42,126 nucleotides of DNA, taken from positions 1 through 42,126 of the forward strand of contig QAZA01000055.1 in NCBI GenBank assembly GCA_003054695.1. The letters are read 5' to 3'. Both the position numbers and the translations under genes were made by a program. The notes under the pieces are model-generated. The model was not told where the DNA came from. It saw nothing but the letters and a program-made list of their open reading frames with translations, and searched no databases. The DNA is from Verrucomicrobia bacterium LW23. GTDB taxonomy: Bacteria; Verrucomicrobiota; Verrucomicrobiia; Methylacidiphilales; UBA1321. Positions 36,664 through 42,126 of this stretch are shown one piece after another (position 1 is the first letter of the stretch; each line of letters opens with the position of its first letter).

Positions 36664-38373
36664 ATGCCTTTTAATCCCTTCAAGACTCCGTCGTTTTTTT
36701 CTATGCGCTTGGCAGTCGCTTCCGTTTTCCTCCTGCTCGCCTCCGCCGCTAGCCTGTCGGCCGGACATGATCTTCCCAGCGACCTCAAGCCCGCGGTCAT
36801 CGTCTCCACGACCGCCGAGCCGGTCGCCCCTGGCAAGTTCCATCCCACCTGGCAATCCCTCTCCCAATACGAAGTCCCCGAATGGTTCCGCGACCGGAAG
36901 TTCGGCATCTGGGCCCATTGGGGACCGCAGTGCCAGCCGGAGGCCGGCGACTGGTATGCGCGCCACATGTATATCGAAGGGCACGGACAAAACAAAGCGC
37001 ACGTGGCCAAATACGGGCATCCCTCCGAGTTCGGCTTCAAGGACGTGATTAACGAATGGAAAGCCGAAAAGTGGGAGCCCGAGAAACTGGTCGCCCTCTA
37101 CAAGCGCGTCGGCGCCCAATACTTCTTCGCTATGGCCAACCACCACGACAACCTGGACATGTGGGACTCCAAGTATCAGCCGTGGAATTCCGTCGCCGTC
37201 GGCCCCAAGAAGAACATCGTCGCCGGCTGGGCCAAGGCCGCCCGCGCCCAGGGACTGCCCTTCGGCCTCAGCGTGCACGCAAGCCGCCCCTGGTCCTGGC
37301 TGGAGACAGCGCAAGGCGCCGACAAAAACGGCGATAAAGCCGGCGTGCCCTACGACGGCAAACTCACCAAGGCCGACGGCAAGGGCAAGTGGTGGGACGG
37401 CCTCGATCCCCAAGACCTGTATGAGCAGCGCCACCAGCCCAGCCGCGGCTTTGAAAAAGCCAACTCCATCTATGCCCGCTGGAACTGGGGCGGGGGCATG
37501 AGCCAGCCCGACCAAGCCTATTGCGACAAGTTCTACAACCGGACGATCGACCTGATTAACAAATATCAGCCCGACCTCCTCTACTTCGACGACACCGTCC
37601 TGCCCCTCTGGCCCGTCTCCGACGCTGGCCTCAAGATCGCCGCCCACTTCTACAACACCAGCCTCAAGCGCCCGGGCGTTGGCGCCGGCGTGCTCTTCGG
37701 CAAAGTCCTCACCGAGGATCAGCGCAAGGCCCTCGTCTGGGATATTGAGCGCGGCATCCCAAATTCCAGCATGCCCTTCGCCTGGCAGACCGACACCTGC
37801 ATCGGCGACTGGCACTACAACCGCGGCGTTTACGAACGGAATCACTACAAGAGCGCCAAAATCGTCGTCCACATGCTGGCCGACATCGTGAGCAAAAACG
37901 GCAACCTCCTGCTCAACATCCCCGTCCGCGGCGACGGCTCCATCGATGAAAAAGAGGAAAAGGTCCTCGAAGGCATCGCCGCCTGGATGGACGTGAACAA
38001 GGATTCGATCCTCGCCACCCGTCCGTGGAAAACCTTTGGCGAAGGCCCCGCCAGCGATGGCGCCAAGCTCCAAGGCGCCGGCTTTAACGAGGGCAAGGGC
38101 AAGCCGTTCACTTCCGAGGACGTCCGCTACACCACCTCCAAGGATGGCAAGACCCTCTACGCCATCGTCTGCGGCTTGCCCACAGGCCCGGTCGCGCTGA
38201 AGTCCCTCGGCCAAACCGCCGCCCTGCTCGACCGCCCCGTCGCCAAGGTCGAACAACTCGGCGTCCCCGGAGCCCTGGTGTGGACCCTCGGGGCCGACGC
38301 TCTCACCGTCACCCCGGCCTCCGCCAAACCCGCCTCCGACGCCGGCATCGTCTTCAAGATCGCGCTCAAGTAA
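36664..38373 (+). CDS. GH29 alpha-L-fucosidase (second copy)
   Basis: A 569-residue secreted enzyme with signal peptide RLAVASVFLLLASAASLSAG. GH29 landmarks are intact: VPEWFRDRKFGIWAHWGPQC, GAQYFFAMANHHDNLDMWDS, PFGLSVHASRPWSWLE, the nucleophile Asp309 in DLLYFDDTVLPLWP, and GDWHYNRGVYERNHYKSAK. The C-terminal domain ends SLGQTAALLDRPVAKVEQLG, DAGIVFKIALK. It lacks the N-terminal extra residues of the first copy and differs enough that different substrates are likely. It is on the same strand as the GH127 and first GH29. The stop lies 50 bases before the DNA polymerase IV fragment. Confidence 0.94.
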   Translation: MPFNPFKTPSFFSMRLAVASVFLLLASAASLSAGHDLPSDLKPAVIVSTTAEPVAPGKFHPTWQSLSQYEVPEWFRDRKFGIWAHWGPQCQPEAGDWYARHMYIEGHGQNKAHVAKYGHPSEFGFKDVINEWKAEKWEPEKLVALYKRVGAQYFFAMANHHDNLDMWDSKYQPWNSVAVGPKKNIVAGWAKAARAQGLPFGLSVHASRPWSWLETAQGADKNGDKAGVPYDGKLTKADGKGKWWDGLDPQDLYEQRHQPSRGFEKANSIYARWNWGGGMSQPDQAYCDKFYNRTIDLINKYQPDLLYFDDTVLPLWPVSDAGLKIAAHFYNTSLKRPGVGAGVLFGKVLTEDQRKALVWDIERGIPNSSMPFAWQTDTCIGDWHYNRGVYERNHYKSAKIVVHMLADIVSKNGNLLLNIPVRGDGSIDEKEEKVLEGIAAWMDVNKDSILATRPWKTFGEGPASDGAKLQGAGFNEGKGKPFTSEDVRYTTSKDGKTLYAIVCGLPTGPVALKSLGQTAALLDRPVAKVEQLGVPGALVWTLGADALTVTPASAKPASDAGIVFKIALK

Positions 38374-38423
38374 CACCCCGCCCCCTCCGCGACCGGTCGG
38401 TAAAGCATAGGATCTCCCGGCGC

Positions 38424-38690
38424 ATGTTTACCTACCTGTACGACTTTACGCCGCAGGTGAAAGTGCAAGGTATCGACGAGGGATACTTCAATGTGCGCGA
38501 AAGTAAACATGCTCCCGAGTGGATTGCGACTATCGTCCGCAGGGCAATCCGAGAATCCCTCAAGATCACCGTGAGCGAGGGTGTTGGATCCAACAAACTC
38601 GCCTCCCAAATCGCATCGAAGCTCCGCAAACCTGACAATCTGATTCACGTCCGAGAAGGCAACGAAAAGACATTCCTCGTACTAATCTGC
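38424..38690 (+). pseudogene. dinB: fragment of Y-family DNA polymerase (DinB/UmuC)
   Basis: From ATG 38424 the frame encodes about 85 residues of the palm and finger domains of a Y-family polymerase: TPQVKVQGIDEGYFNVRESK holds the catalytic Asp-Glu pair (usually SIDEAYLDV), followed by VRRAIRESLKITVSEGVGSN and KLASQIASKLRKPDNLIHVR ending near GNEKTFL. The first 100 and last 150 residues of Pol IV are absent. The frame continues without a stop into the tyrosine recombinase, giving a chimeric open frame to 39566. It probably marks a target gene or a cargo gene cut by an insertion or deletion at about 38685. Confidence 0.85.
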
Positions 38691-39792
38691 TGCGACAGGG
38701 GGAGGTCGCGCAGGGGCAACCCCCATTCGATGGTGGCATCAACCCATTTGTTGAGCACAGTACGTGCTTTTTCTCTGAGGGTCCTCAAGTGGCTCATCCG
38801 TTTTAAGCGACTTTCTATCGAGAATCCGCTCAAGTTCGTGGAGAAGATATCGGAAGCTGGTACGGAGACGTATCAACGGCGCCCCTTTACGGAGGAGGAG
38901 CTCAATGCTCTGATCAGTCTTCCCACTCGCCGGAGCGTTCTATACCTCACTGCCGCTCATACGGGTTTGCGACGCGACGAGCTCAAGACACTGCTTTGGT
39001 CGGACATTTCCTTGGACTGCGAGTCGCCGTTCATCGCGGTACGCGCCGCAAATGCTAAAAACAAGAAGCTTCAGCCGATTCCGCTGCATTCAGAAGTAGT
39101 TGAGGCTCTCAAGGCGCAACGAGACAAAGTTCAGGCGCAACCCGATCACAAGGTTTTCCGTGATATTTGCCCCGACTGGAAGACGTTTAGGAGTGACCTG
39201 AAAAGGGCAGGTATCGCTAATCCCGGAGACCCTTCCGGCAAGGTTCACTTCCATTCACTTCGCCATACTCTGAATCACCGTCTTCAAAATAACGGCGTAG
39301 TTCCGACCGTTGCCCAGCATGTAATGCGGCATAGCGATATCAAGCTGACAACCAAGACCTACATCAACGCTGCATCTTTTGCCGTTAGTTCAGGCGATTC
39401 AAAAGGTTCCCGCCATCGTACAGAAGCAGGATACTTCACGGGTCTTAAACGCACCTATAAACCCACTAACTTCAGTCCCGGCCTGTCACTTGGCGTCGCA
39501 AACTGTCCGCGAATTTACGAAAAACGAGTTCCTCAAATACCTACAAGAGACGGACTTAAGTCCTGATTTGACGCTTCTTGTCATTACCTGTCAAAACAGA
39601 GAAAAAGTGGGCAGAACAGGATTCGAACCTGCACTAAAACCGTTGATACTACAGGTGCTTATCAACCCATGCACACCGCTAGACACACCTCCTTTAGGCA
39701 CACCAGAAATTGCAGAAATTGCATCCCGTTGGAAGCGGTTGCCTGAGGCGTTAAAGGCTGCAGTAATGGGAATCGTGAGAAGCCAATACTAA
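38690..39792 (+). pseudogene. tyrosine recombinase (phage/island integrase), frameshifted
   Basis: The core-binding end (VLKWLIRFKRLSIENPLKFV) and catalytic domain are visible: Arg in TAAHTGLRRDELKTLLW, the His-x-x-Arg box in FHSLRHTLNHRL, the second His in VAQHVMRHSDIKLTTK and the nucleophile Tyr in TYINA. After that Tyr the expected tail (PLVQAIQKVPAIVQKQDTSR through EIASRWKRLPEALKAAVMGI) appears in a different frame (frame of 39379-39792), so a one-base indel lies near 39370-39385. The N-terminus is missing, replaced by the polymerase fragment. Family tails usually end in exactly this ...LPxAVKAAILAIV style. The enzyme retains the catalytic residues but is probably inactive. Confidence 0.82.
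39608..39632 (-). repeat. tRNA 3'-end sequence, candidate attachment core (att)
   Basis: On the minus strand these 25 bases read as a T-stem/loop (GCAGG-TTCGAAT-CCTGT) followed by an acceptor 3' strand TCTGCCCA. No matching GGGCAGA or anticodon arm follows on the appropriate side, so this is only the tRNA tail. It is read through in the integrase tail as VGRTGFEPAL, a string typical of frames crossing a tRNA end. Tyrosine integrases often insert at this part of tRNA genes. Confidence 0.65.
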
Positions 39793-40147
39793 AGGTAGCT
39801 TGAACGAGAGAGTTCTACCAGGGATCCACGGAATAAGTCTTGGAGGTGTACGGAGCCTAGTTTTCCAGCCCGAGTCCCGGCCTATGAGTAGGGAAAGGCT
39901 TCCAACTTGCTGAGCCGTTCGTAAACGGTTACCCCGTTCCGGCGCAGTCCGTTCTCGCTAGTAGGTACAACGGAGCCCCGAGTCTGAAAGTCCTCGAAGT
40001 GTCGTCAGACACCCTACACCTCGAGATCGTATGGAAAACTTCGATTAATTGCATCAGTTTTTCAATATGAAATTTATTGAGTAGCAGGTAAAAATGCGGT
40101 TTATTGTTGCAGTTACCATGTACCAATCGCCAAAATAACTGCACCAG
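39793..40147. other. 355-bp intergenic region at the left of the DGQHR operon, with hairpins
   Basis: No gene. The GC content drops along this stretch. Two short stable stems are visible: CCGTT-CGTA-AACGG (39915-39928) and GTGTC-GTCA-GACAC (39999-40012). No known RNA family is recognised. It should contain the promoter of the downstream operon, and a non-coding RNA is possible. Confidence 0.45.
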
Positions 40148-41098
40148 ATGCCTCAGATTATAATTGTCGCAAATTGCAGCCATCTAAAGCGTGCAGGAAG
40201 TTCTCAACCCATCTGCATAAGGAATATCAAAGAAAAAAAAATGGCGGATCCAGTTGTTAGCTGGATTGAAGCGATCTGCGAAGTGCCATGGACTTACCCG
40301 CTGACGGAGATTTATCGCGGACAGTACTGGTCAGTAATCCGCGAAATCGAAAAGGTATTGGCTGAAAAATCCTTCTCTCGAAAACTTCTGGTAGCTTCTG
40401 CAGGTCTAGGGTTGTTAGGTCCAAGCGACCGCTTGCCGCACTATTCTGCCACATTCCAGCCTCGCGCCGAAGATGATGTACTTCCTACTTCACTCAGAAC
40501 CGGTCTCCGAAGAACGGGAATCCGAGATTGGTGGAAGACTATAAATGAGGCGCTTAGTCCTCGAAAAACATACACATCCCTCGGTGAAGCCGTTGACGCT
40601 GATACTTCGGTCATTCTTGTTCTTTTATCCACGTACTATCTTGAGGCTCTCAAACCGGAGATCGCTGAGCTACAAACGCAATTTCCTGGTATGCATTTCT
40701 TAATATTTGCACCCGCCGAGGATCCAGCGGCAAGGGGATTAGATGGAGTAATCCCCCTAAATGCATCGCTTCAAAGACAGTTGGGAGGTAATAGAGGCAC
40801 TACGGCCGTAAGGATGGCTCTTGCATATTTGAAATCCGAACGCAGTTTAGCCACCATTTCATCGCAGAATTGCCGTCAGTTTTTACTAAGTTTTCAAAAT
40901 AGCGAGTTAAAAATGGAGTGGCCCTCGCGACAGGTGGTAAGTGACCTCGAGGTTAAAATGTTCATCCGAAGCTTAAAAGAGTCGAGGTCTACAGCTTATA
41001 CTCCTGCGCTTCGTGCATTTCGTACTGCTGGGTTTGCATGCGAAATGAAGCGATTCAAACTTCTGTTCAACGAGGAGCTAAAACATGGCCAGAGCTAA
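40148..41098 (+). CDS. uncharacterised protein, DUF6884-like N-terminal half
   Basis: A 316-residue protein. It begins MPQIIIVANCSHLKRAGSSQ, a beta strand followed by a C-S-x-x-K/R turn, and continues with VPWTYPLTEIYRGQYWSVIR and SRKLLVASAGLGLLGPSDRL. This order (strand-Cys-Lys, Y-x-G-x-x-W, then V-x-S-A-x-x-GLL) resembles the DUF6884 fold found near modified-nucleobase enzymes. Later blocks (TSVILVLLSTYYLEALKPEI, LIFAPAEDPAARGLDGVIPL) look like a Rossmann-type half. A run of nine A residues (40233-40241) lies in the coding sequence, with a possible internal start (MADPVV, 40241). The last 14 bases overlap the next gene, so the pair is translationally coupled. Function is not known; base composition is AT-richer than the host. 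Confidence 0.75.
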   Translation: MPQIIIVANCSHLKRAGSSQPICIRNIKEKKMADPVVSWIEAICEVPWTYPLTEIYRGQYWSVIREIEKVLAEKSFSRKLLVASAGLGLLGPSDRLPHYSATFQPRAEDDVLPTSLRTGLRRTGIRDWWKTINEALSPRKTYTSLGEAVDADTSVILVLLSTYYLEALKPEIAELQTQFPGMHFLIFAPAEDPAARGLDGVIPLNASLQRQLGGNRGTTAVRMALAYLKSERSLATISSQNCRQFLLSFQNSELKMEWPSRQVVSDLEVKMFIRSLKESRSTAYTPALRAFRTAGFACEMKRFKLLFNEELKHGQS

Positions 41099-42126
41099 TT
41101 CTACGTCGAGCAAAACAATTATCAGACGGGCTACGATGCTTTCACAGTCTGGTGGCAATTCCGTTTACCAGTTCGCGCTCACAGGTCGAGAATTGGTGGA
41201 AATTGCTGATGTTTCTAGAATTGAGCGAGCTCATACCGGAGAACTGCTTGGCTATCAGAGACCGGAAGTTAAAAAGCATATTCAGGATATTCTCGATTAC
41301 CTTGATGCTGGGAAAACCCTCTTTCCCCATGCGATTATTTTAGCATTCTCAAGTCGTGTCTGGTTTGTCAAGCAACGGGGTCCCAAAGCATTTGATGGCG
41401 TCTCCTCGGCTGGCGAACTCCATATACCTACTCAACTCGGTCTACACCGCGCAAAAATTGCTTGGGTTGTGGACGGACAACAAAGACTCTTGGCCATCTC
41501 TCGATCGAAATTTCAGGATGTTCCGATCCCTATCTGCGCGTTCATTTCTGATGATGTAGAAATACAAAGAGATCAGTTTCTCCGAATAAATAACTCCCGT
41601 CCGTTGCCTAAAGGGTTAGTTGAGGAACTTTTACCAGAGGTTTCTCTGCCCATTTCATCACGATTGGCTGGCAGCAAAATACCTTCCTCTTTAACTAATC
41701 TTCTTAATCAAGATCCAAAGTCACCATTCTTTGAGATGATCAAGCGGGCGTCCATGAGTAAAGACCAGAAAGTAAAAGCTGTAGTAACGGATGGACCACT
41801 TATTAAAGTTATAAAGGAAAGTCTGAACCAACCTTCTGGTTGTCTTTTTCCTTACCGAGATGTGGCAACCGGAGAAACGGATATGGAATCCATCTGGAGG
41901 ATTCTGACAAGCTATTGGAACGGCGTAAAACAGACTTTCCCAGATGCTTGGGGATTACCCCCTACCCAGAGCAGACTTATGCATAGTGCCGGGCTTTGGG
42001 CAGTTGGCCGTCTAATGGACCGTGTAATCCCGAGGATAAGCTTGGGTAAGGAAGGGGCAAATGCCGTTGCGTTTGAACTATCGTTCATCAAGGATGCCTG
42101 CAGATGGTCCGAAGGAACCTGGGAAG
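41085..42126 (+). CDS. DGQHR-domain protein (DndB/DpdB-like), 3' end outside window
   Basis: The ATG at 41085 has a GAGGAG ribosome binding site seven bases away. The frame is open to the window end (347 residues seen). The hallmark DGQQRL lies at residues 130-135 in IAWVVDGQQRLLAISRSKF, preceded by GYQRPEVKKHIQDILDYLDA near 57. Both are diagnostic of the DGQHR family, which includes DndB of the DNA phosphorothioation system and DpdB-type proteins of the 7-deazaguanine DNA modification cluster. FRINNSRPLPKGLVEELLPE also fits the family. These proteins bind DNA and control or assist DNA modification. The start overlaps the stop of the upstream gene, so both belong to one operon, located just beyond the integrase and tRNA remnant. 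Confidence 0.85.
   Translation, partial: MARANSTSSKTIIRRATMLSQSGGNSVYQFALTGRELVEIADVSRIERAHTGELLGYQRPEVKKHIQDILDYLDAGKTLFPHAIILAFSSRVWFVKQRGPKAFDGVSSAGELHIPTQLGLHRAKIAWVVDGQQRLLAISRSKFQDVPIPICAFISDDVEIQRDQFLRINNSRPLPKGLVEELLPEVSLPISSRLAGSKIPSSLTNLLNQDPKSPFFEMIKRASMSKDQKVKAVVTDGPLIKVIKESLNQPSGCLFPYRDVATGETDMESIWRILTSYWNGVKQTFPDAWGLPPTQSRLMHSAGLWAVGRLMDRVIPRISLGKEGANAVAFELSFIKDACRWSEGTWE

Follow-up and report, generated by a model that had tools for sequence, protein, structure and literature searches.

We find that the right end of one contig of Verrucomicrobia bacterium LW23 and the head of the contig that follows it encode the modification half of a Dpd system, that the canonical Dpd restriction operon dpdD-K is absent, and that genes for an HNH protein and a third DGQHR protein are found in its place. 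Dpd is a bacterial DNA-marking system, in which a modified base replaces guanine in DNA. The reading we favour, at a probability of roughly 60%, is that of a compact Dpd island, in which the HNH and DGQHR pair serves as an exchangeable restriction effector replacing dpdD-K. It draws on gene content and co-occurrence, on the alternation of the pair with DpdJ-type modules and its repeated exchange on the DpdA tree, and on conserved motifs and a predicted fold.

The window, meaning the whole stretch of DNA analysed (42,126 nucleotides), is the entire contig C55 of a 6.6-Mb draft genome (56 contigs, 95.4% complete). At about 38.5-40 kb, at the right end of the window, GC content falls from ~0.60 to ~0.455, in accordance with the composition drop at an island edge that a preliminary description had read from the letters. 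That description also placed a tyrosine recombinase and a tRNA 3' end ahead of two coupled genes. The recombinase is present and ends at 39,566, the tRNA end is found on the minus strand with 24 bits, below the Rfam gathering score, and the two genes have 14 nt in common (41,085-41,098). The features of this end are:

36664..38373, forward: alpha-L-fucosidase gene (GH29; PF01120, 1.2e-87), chromosomal flank outside the element
38280..39566, forward: DinB (IMS) fragment fused in frame, in one ORF, to the C-terminal part of a tyrosine recombinase (IMS 1.3e-11; Phage_integrase, PF00589, 1.6e-18)
39608..39631, reverse: attL, a second copy of the tRNA-Tyr 3' end, repeated directly at C56:79426-79445
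39793..40147, forward: non-coding leader between the att region and dpdC; no Rfam match, no copy within the element
40148..41098, forward: dpdC, 316 aa (PADLOC PDLC02817 DpdC, 2.9e-52, whole model covered; alignment made with five further DpdC proteins)
41085..42126, forward: dpdB1, DGQHR/ParB-like, truncated at its 3' end where the contig stops (NF041060 DpdB, 370.5 bits; PADLOC PDLC02811, 1.7e-116)

The first gene had been given a left boundary at 39,793, which has to be moved: a start at 40,148 fills the DpdC model and gains 18 bits over a shorter ATG start (40,238-type). Its likeness to DUF6884 stands in part. The Pfam DUF6884 model does not match gene 1 and matches its G027 homologue weakly (E 0.005); the protein is DpdC by PADLOC, and DpdC is labelled DUF6884 in the GATOR-GC preprint (PMC11888242). 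By homology, DpdC would convert preQ0 in DNA to amido-deazaguanine. The second gene was rightly taken for a DGQHR protein, its DpdB score lying above the NCBIfam NF041060 equivalog cut-off of 300 bits. Neither DpdC nor DpdB has sequence relatives in the PDB at E<=0.1. The ~500 nt from attL to dpdC (39632-40147) hold no convincing gene.

No dnd or dpd partner had been seen in the window, because the contig stops at 42,126, inside dpdB1; the partners lie on contig C56. The first 48 nucleotides of C56 (C56:1-48) are the last 15 codons of dpdB1 and its stop, reading SNFLVRSYVHRRVPQ, and the tail of the same dpdB in the relative G027 reads SNFLIRSYMERRGQS, also followed by the stop. Because the head of C56 matches the dpdB tail of G027, we place C55 and C56 next to each other, with ~59 nt missing. 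The remainder of the cluster is:

C56:45-1310, forward: dpdA, TGT-like transglycosylase gene (PADLOC PDLC02807, 1.8e-157)
C56:1300-2424, forward: dpdB2 (PDLC02811, 1.5e-130)
C56:2432-3235, reverse: HNH protein gene (PF01844)
C56:3228-4799, reverse: third DGQHR protein gene, 523 aa, overlapping the HNH gene (DGQHR motif; no Pfam match)
C56:5004-5447, reverse: queD-like PTPS gene (PTPS/QueD match)
C56:5458-6162, reverse: queC (QueC match)

The gene order is dpdC, dpdB1, the contig break, dpdA and dpdB2, all forward, then HNH, DGQHR, queD-like and queC on the other strand. Residues D92, D127, D263 and C373/C375/C378/H400 of DpdA are invariant among 11 aligned DpdA proteins. QueE and FolE2 have no match in C56:1-80000. 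The arrangement dpdC-dpdB-dpdA-dpdB is common in other genomes; with que genes it occurs in loci of Acidobacteriota, Actinomycetota, Pseudomonadota and Cyanobacteriota and in relatives of the window's genome. The modification half is therewith a known, standard Dpd (7-deazapurine-in-DNA) module. A planctomycete contig (L022:716-3598) carries queC, queE and a dpdB close to that of the window, and no dpdA in its remaining 1.4 kb.

The preliminary description had proposed a new DNA-modification or defence system, whose partners were to be sought downstream and which a standard downstream cluster would speak against. DpdA, a second DpdB, QueD and QueC are indeed found downstream, and DNA modification is upheld; the modification is not new, its cluster being completed in the standard way. 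The restriction half is not so completed, with the HNH and DGQHR genes in the place of dpdD-K. DpdD has no match anywhere in the genome, nor does a full-length DpdJ, the sole DpdJ match being a 100-residue helicase stretch, and DpdD-K have no match within the element. The island is thus a Dpd member by its modification and, because dpdD-K are absent, not a canonical Dpd restriction system. It shares with the canonical dpdA-K clusters of Salmonella Montevideo and of the E. cloacae plasmid pPOL9A (L030) DpdA, DpdB, DpdC, the preQ0 genes queC and queD, and the location on a mobile element, which in this case sits at a tRNA gene; it differs from them in the two dpdB genes that flank dpdA, in the lack of dpdD-K and in the HNH and DGQHR pair.

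Is the pair a regular tenant of such clusters? Twenty dpd clusters were scanned, all found by DpdA or DpdB queries and not by the pair. An intact adjacent pair is present in six of them, from four phyla (the window's genome, G027, Occallatibacter, Methylibium, Cyanobium and a Bradyrhizobium plasmid), with a spacing of -8 to +15 nt between the two genes in 6/6 and in either gene order. None of the six has DpdD or a full-length DpdJ in the genome searched (for Bradyrhizobium, the plasmid only). Conversely, none of the 11 clusters with DpdJ or DpdJ-like helicases holds an intact pair, and two clusters, of Rhizobium WYJ-E13 and Sinorhizobium, have neither. One of the 11, an A. vitis plasmid (L032:22012-25024), carries dpdD-K together with an intact HNH gene and a DGQHR gene that lost its N-terminus next to an IS5 element. 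The alternation of pair and DpdJ-type modules gives a Fisher p of 0.001, or 0.006 if this truncated copy is counted as both; once relatedness is removed, 4 independent pairs are left, which all agree with the prediction but are too few for significance (p 0.125). On the DpdA tree the state of the pair changes 5 times, with support for the branches of at least 4 of these changes, and the hypothesis that the pair arose only once is rejected (p-AU 6e-46). The sister of the window's genome on this tree, G360, belongs to the same class and has DpdD, DpdJ, DpdH, DpdG and DpdF.

A UvrD-like helicase and PD-(D/E)XK pair also stands beside dpd, with or without the HNH pair (L046:9583-13345, L026:5185-8939 and L031:9999-13623). 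L026 and L031 are two of the six pair-holding clusters, which, like the A. vitis case, weighs against the favoured reading. This second pair is possibly another alternative effector.

The two protein families are divergent, with 18-30% identity to the first row of either alignment, and keep their characteristic residues. In the HNH family (PF01844) the CxxC, H, N and C positions are invariant, and it matches the HNH domains of solved nucleases. In the third DGQHR family the DGQHR motif is invariant and a phenylalanine-asparagine motif is kept; QR, DGQxR and FxxxN recur superfamily-wide in our DGQHR comparison, and these are the three motifs common to DGQHR and GmrS proteins (PMC4619093). A model of the L026 homologue of the third DGQHR protein, built on a 28-row alignment, reached a pLDDT of 82 (three-sequence input gave 45 and was not used). 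Aligned with VIA-align, it scores Z ~8 (moderate) with ParB/Noc/KorB, ~6 with sulfiredoxin and 3.7 over 112 residues (weak) with SspE. The fold call rests on these Z scores because Foldseek gave no match to the model at E<=0.001. The third DGQHR protein is accordingly predicted to have a ParB/sulfiredoxin fold and to be a putative NTPase. It has no Pfam match, hence no DUF262 (PF03235), and DUF1524 is missing from the pair. The PADLOC defence library names neither gene as a Dpd effector.

We infer the mark itself, the restriction activity and the direction of sensing as follows. Going by homology, preQ0 would be made by QueD and QueC together with QueE/FolE activity supplied by the rest of the cell, DpdA aided by both DpdB proteins would swap guanine for it in DNA, and DpdC would turn it there into the amido form. 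We propose that the DGQHR protein is an NTPase which senses whether DNA is modified and accordingly restrains the HNH nuclease or sets it free; unmarked DNA would then be nicked or cut. This is the logic of DndI, SspE and GmrSD split over two genes, and the gating of HNH according to modification state is suggested by analogy with them. DndI, in which DUF262 is joined to HNH, accompanies dndBCDE where dndFGH are absent; its ATP hydrolysis and phage defence depend on the arginine of the DGQQR motif, its ATPase is stimulated by the mark, and unmarked DNA is nicked (PMC11662687). Since a compact effector beside dndBCDE, with no dndFGH, has thus a precedent, the exchangeable-effector reading gains support.

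By its parts the pair resembles DndI, SspE and GmrSD, and by domain make-up it is a member of none (no DUF262 or DUF1524 match, two genes). DndI and SspE combine a ParB-like NTPase bearing DGQxR with HNH and are likewise compact effectors next to a modification module that lacks a large restriction complex; yet each is one fused protein with DUF262 and DUF1524, whereas here a DGQHR-type protein and a PF01844 HNH protein are encoded by two genes. Moreover, they are phosphorothioate effectors, whereas the present pair is linked mostly to 7-deazaguanine. GmrSD type IV enzymes unite a ParB/Srx-fold NTPase bearing DGQ(Q/H)R with HNH and may consist of two proteins, but unlike the pair they cut modified DNA and are untied to modification genes of their own. 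BRIGADE and other Dpd-like systems (PMC12458937) show 7-deazaguanine clusters with exchanged effectors as well; these are YprA helicases with PLD or PD-(D/E)XK nucleases in haloarchaea, none of which is present here.

The third DGQHR protein turns up very seldom. In the single match to the third DGQHR protein among ~1,407 non-seed genomes (four samples of 386, 291, 346 and 384, centre genomes left out), namely G246, the HNH and DGQHR genes directly follow dndB-dndC-dndD-dndE, with DndB at 528 and DndC at 616 bits, both above cut-off. In the sample of that phylum no DpdA was reported outside the window's genome and G360. A contig from a viral collection (L056) has dndC, dndD and then the pair downstream, and is the second dnd-linked case. 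DndC has no match in the window's genome, in the five other dpd-type pair holders or in the A. vitis plasmid, and the query used found no DpdA in viral contigs. The L056 dnd locus (L056:1-10640) also contains an HSP90-like ATPase, a large extra DGQHR protein and an Mrr-like gene. In the favoured reading the pair is exchanged between modification systems, Dpd and Dnd. In its strongest form, this would make it a portable modification-sensing effector, repeatedly plugged into 7-deazaguanine and phosphorothioate systems, which would sense either mark or the marking complex and not one chemistry, a view we hold tentatively, at somewhat short of even odds. Canonical Dpd restriction takes eight genes, and how they work has hardly been explored; according to PMC12707154, restriction activity tied to ADG has not been explored further. 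With two genes in their stead, it would be far simpler to study how a cell distinguishes 7-deazaguanine DNA from unmodified DNA. The occurrence of the pair next to dnd genes as well would allow a direct test of whether effectors of this kind recognise the chemical mark itself or a property that all marked DNA shares.

Could the pair instead belong to the modification side? The third DGQHR protein could then, for instance, license DpdA at particular sites while HNH nicks DNA for access, and the islands would be modification-only, anti-restriction or regulatory. DpdB and DndB, which are DGQHR proteins, do act on the modification side (PMC12839542, PMC10853773), and islands without a restriction operon are described in PMC11888242. 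Against this, the pair alternates with DpdJ-type restriction modules and accompanies two marks of unrelated chemistry, as would be expected of an effector more than of a DpdA helper, and L046, L049 and the DpdJ-type clusters manage without it. We regard a role in modification or its control as unlikely.

The preprint just cited bears on the window itself. It states that dpdB is the most often duplicated dpd gene and mentions a Verrucomicrobiota island 'LW23' that lacks the restriction operon, retains dpdC and lies beside PF00589, PF01120 and PF01844 genes. This is probably the window's own island, because PF01120 and PF00589 genes flank the cluster here and the HNH protein is PF01844; both thus have dpdC, no restriction operon, and the integrase, hydrolase and HNH neighbours. 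The text consulted lists the neighbourhood only and mentions neither the third DGQHR protein nor an alternation with DpdJ or a link to dnd. Beyond that remark, the literature searched, which left out the main Dpd papers, holds no description of the HNH and DGQHR pair as a Dpd effector, and as such it is apparently undescribed so far.

A hitchhiking pair, that is, a stand-alone GmrSD-like type IV restriction system that gathers in defence islands, is more doubtful still. A ParB-like NTPase with HNH is also the make-up of GmrSD (PMC4619093) and defence genes tend to cluster; yet the two genes are coupled and sit within or beside the modification cluster, and in the ~1,407 genomes and 72,556 plasmids the pair is almost never away from dpd or dnd. 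The one plasmid among these with a third DGQHR protein carries dpd, and one copy only (L057), at a contig start beside phage genes, has no readable dpd or dnd context.

The borders of the element can be read from its att copies. The attL 20-mer has one other copy in the genome, oriented alike, at the 3' end of an intact tRNA-Tyr(GTA) (C56:79,421-79,503), and an integrase lies just inside this att copy (C56:78146-79456). If C55 and C56 join as proposed, the element measures ~82 kb between direct repeats, with dpd at its left end, and it carries a TrwC relaxase. Because an att copy stands at either end of the element, it is highly improbable that this is a canonical Dpd island with dpdD-K merely lost from the draft assembly, despite the incompleteness of the draft and the contig break inside the cluster, as no DpdD-K match is found from attL to attR, the genome-wide searches agree and the same replacement is seen in five other genomes or plasmids.

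The recombinase in the window lies outside the att repeat, on the side away from dpd. Positions 38787-39631 share 75% identity with the integrase-bearing end of the dpd element (C56:78602-79445), and the ORF at 38280-39566 looks like the deletion scar of a related element. The dpd element encodes a 1366-aa apparent fusion of DinB-type and DnaE-type polymerases beside a LexA/UmuD-like gene (C56:6334-10434, L013). Farther along (C56:39.5-75 kb; L014, L015, L020), it appears to hold phosphate-transport, arsenic and RND metal-efflux genes, going by the ORF starts only.
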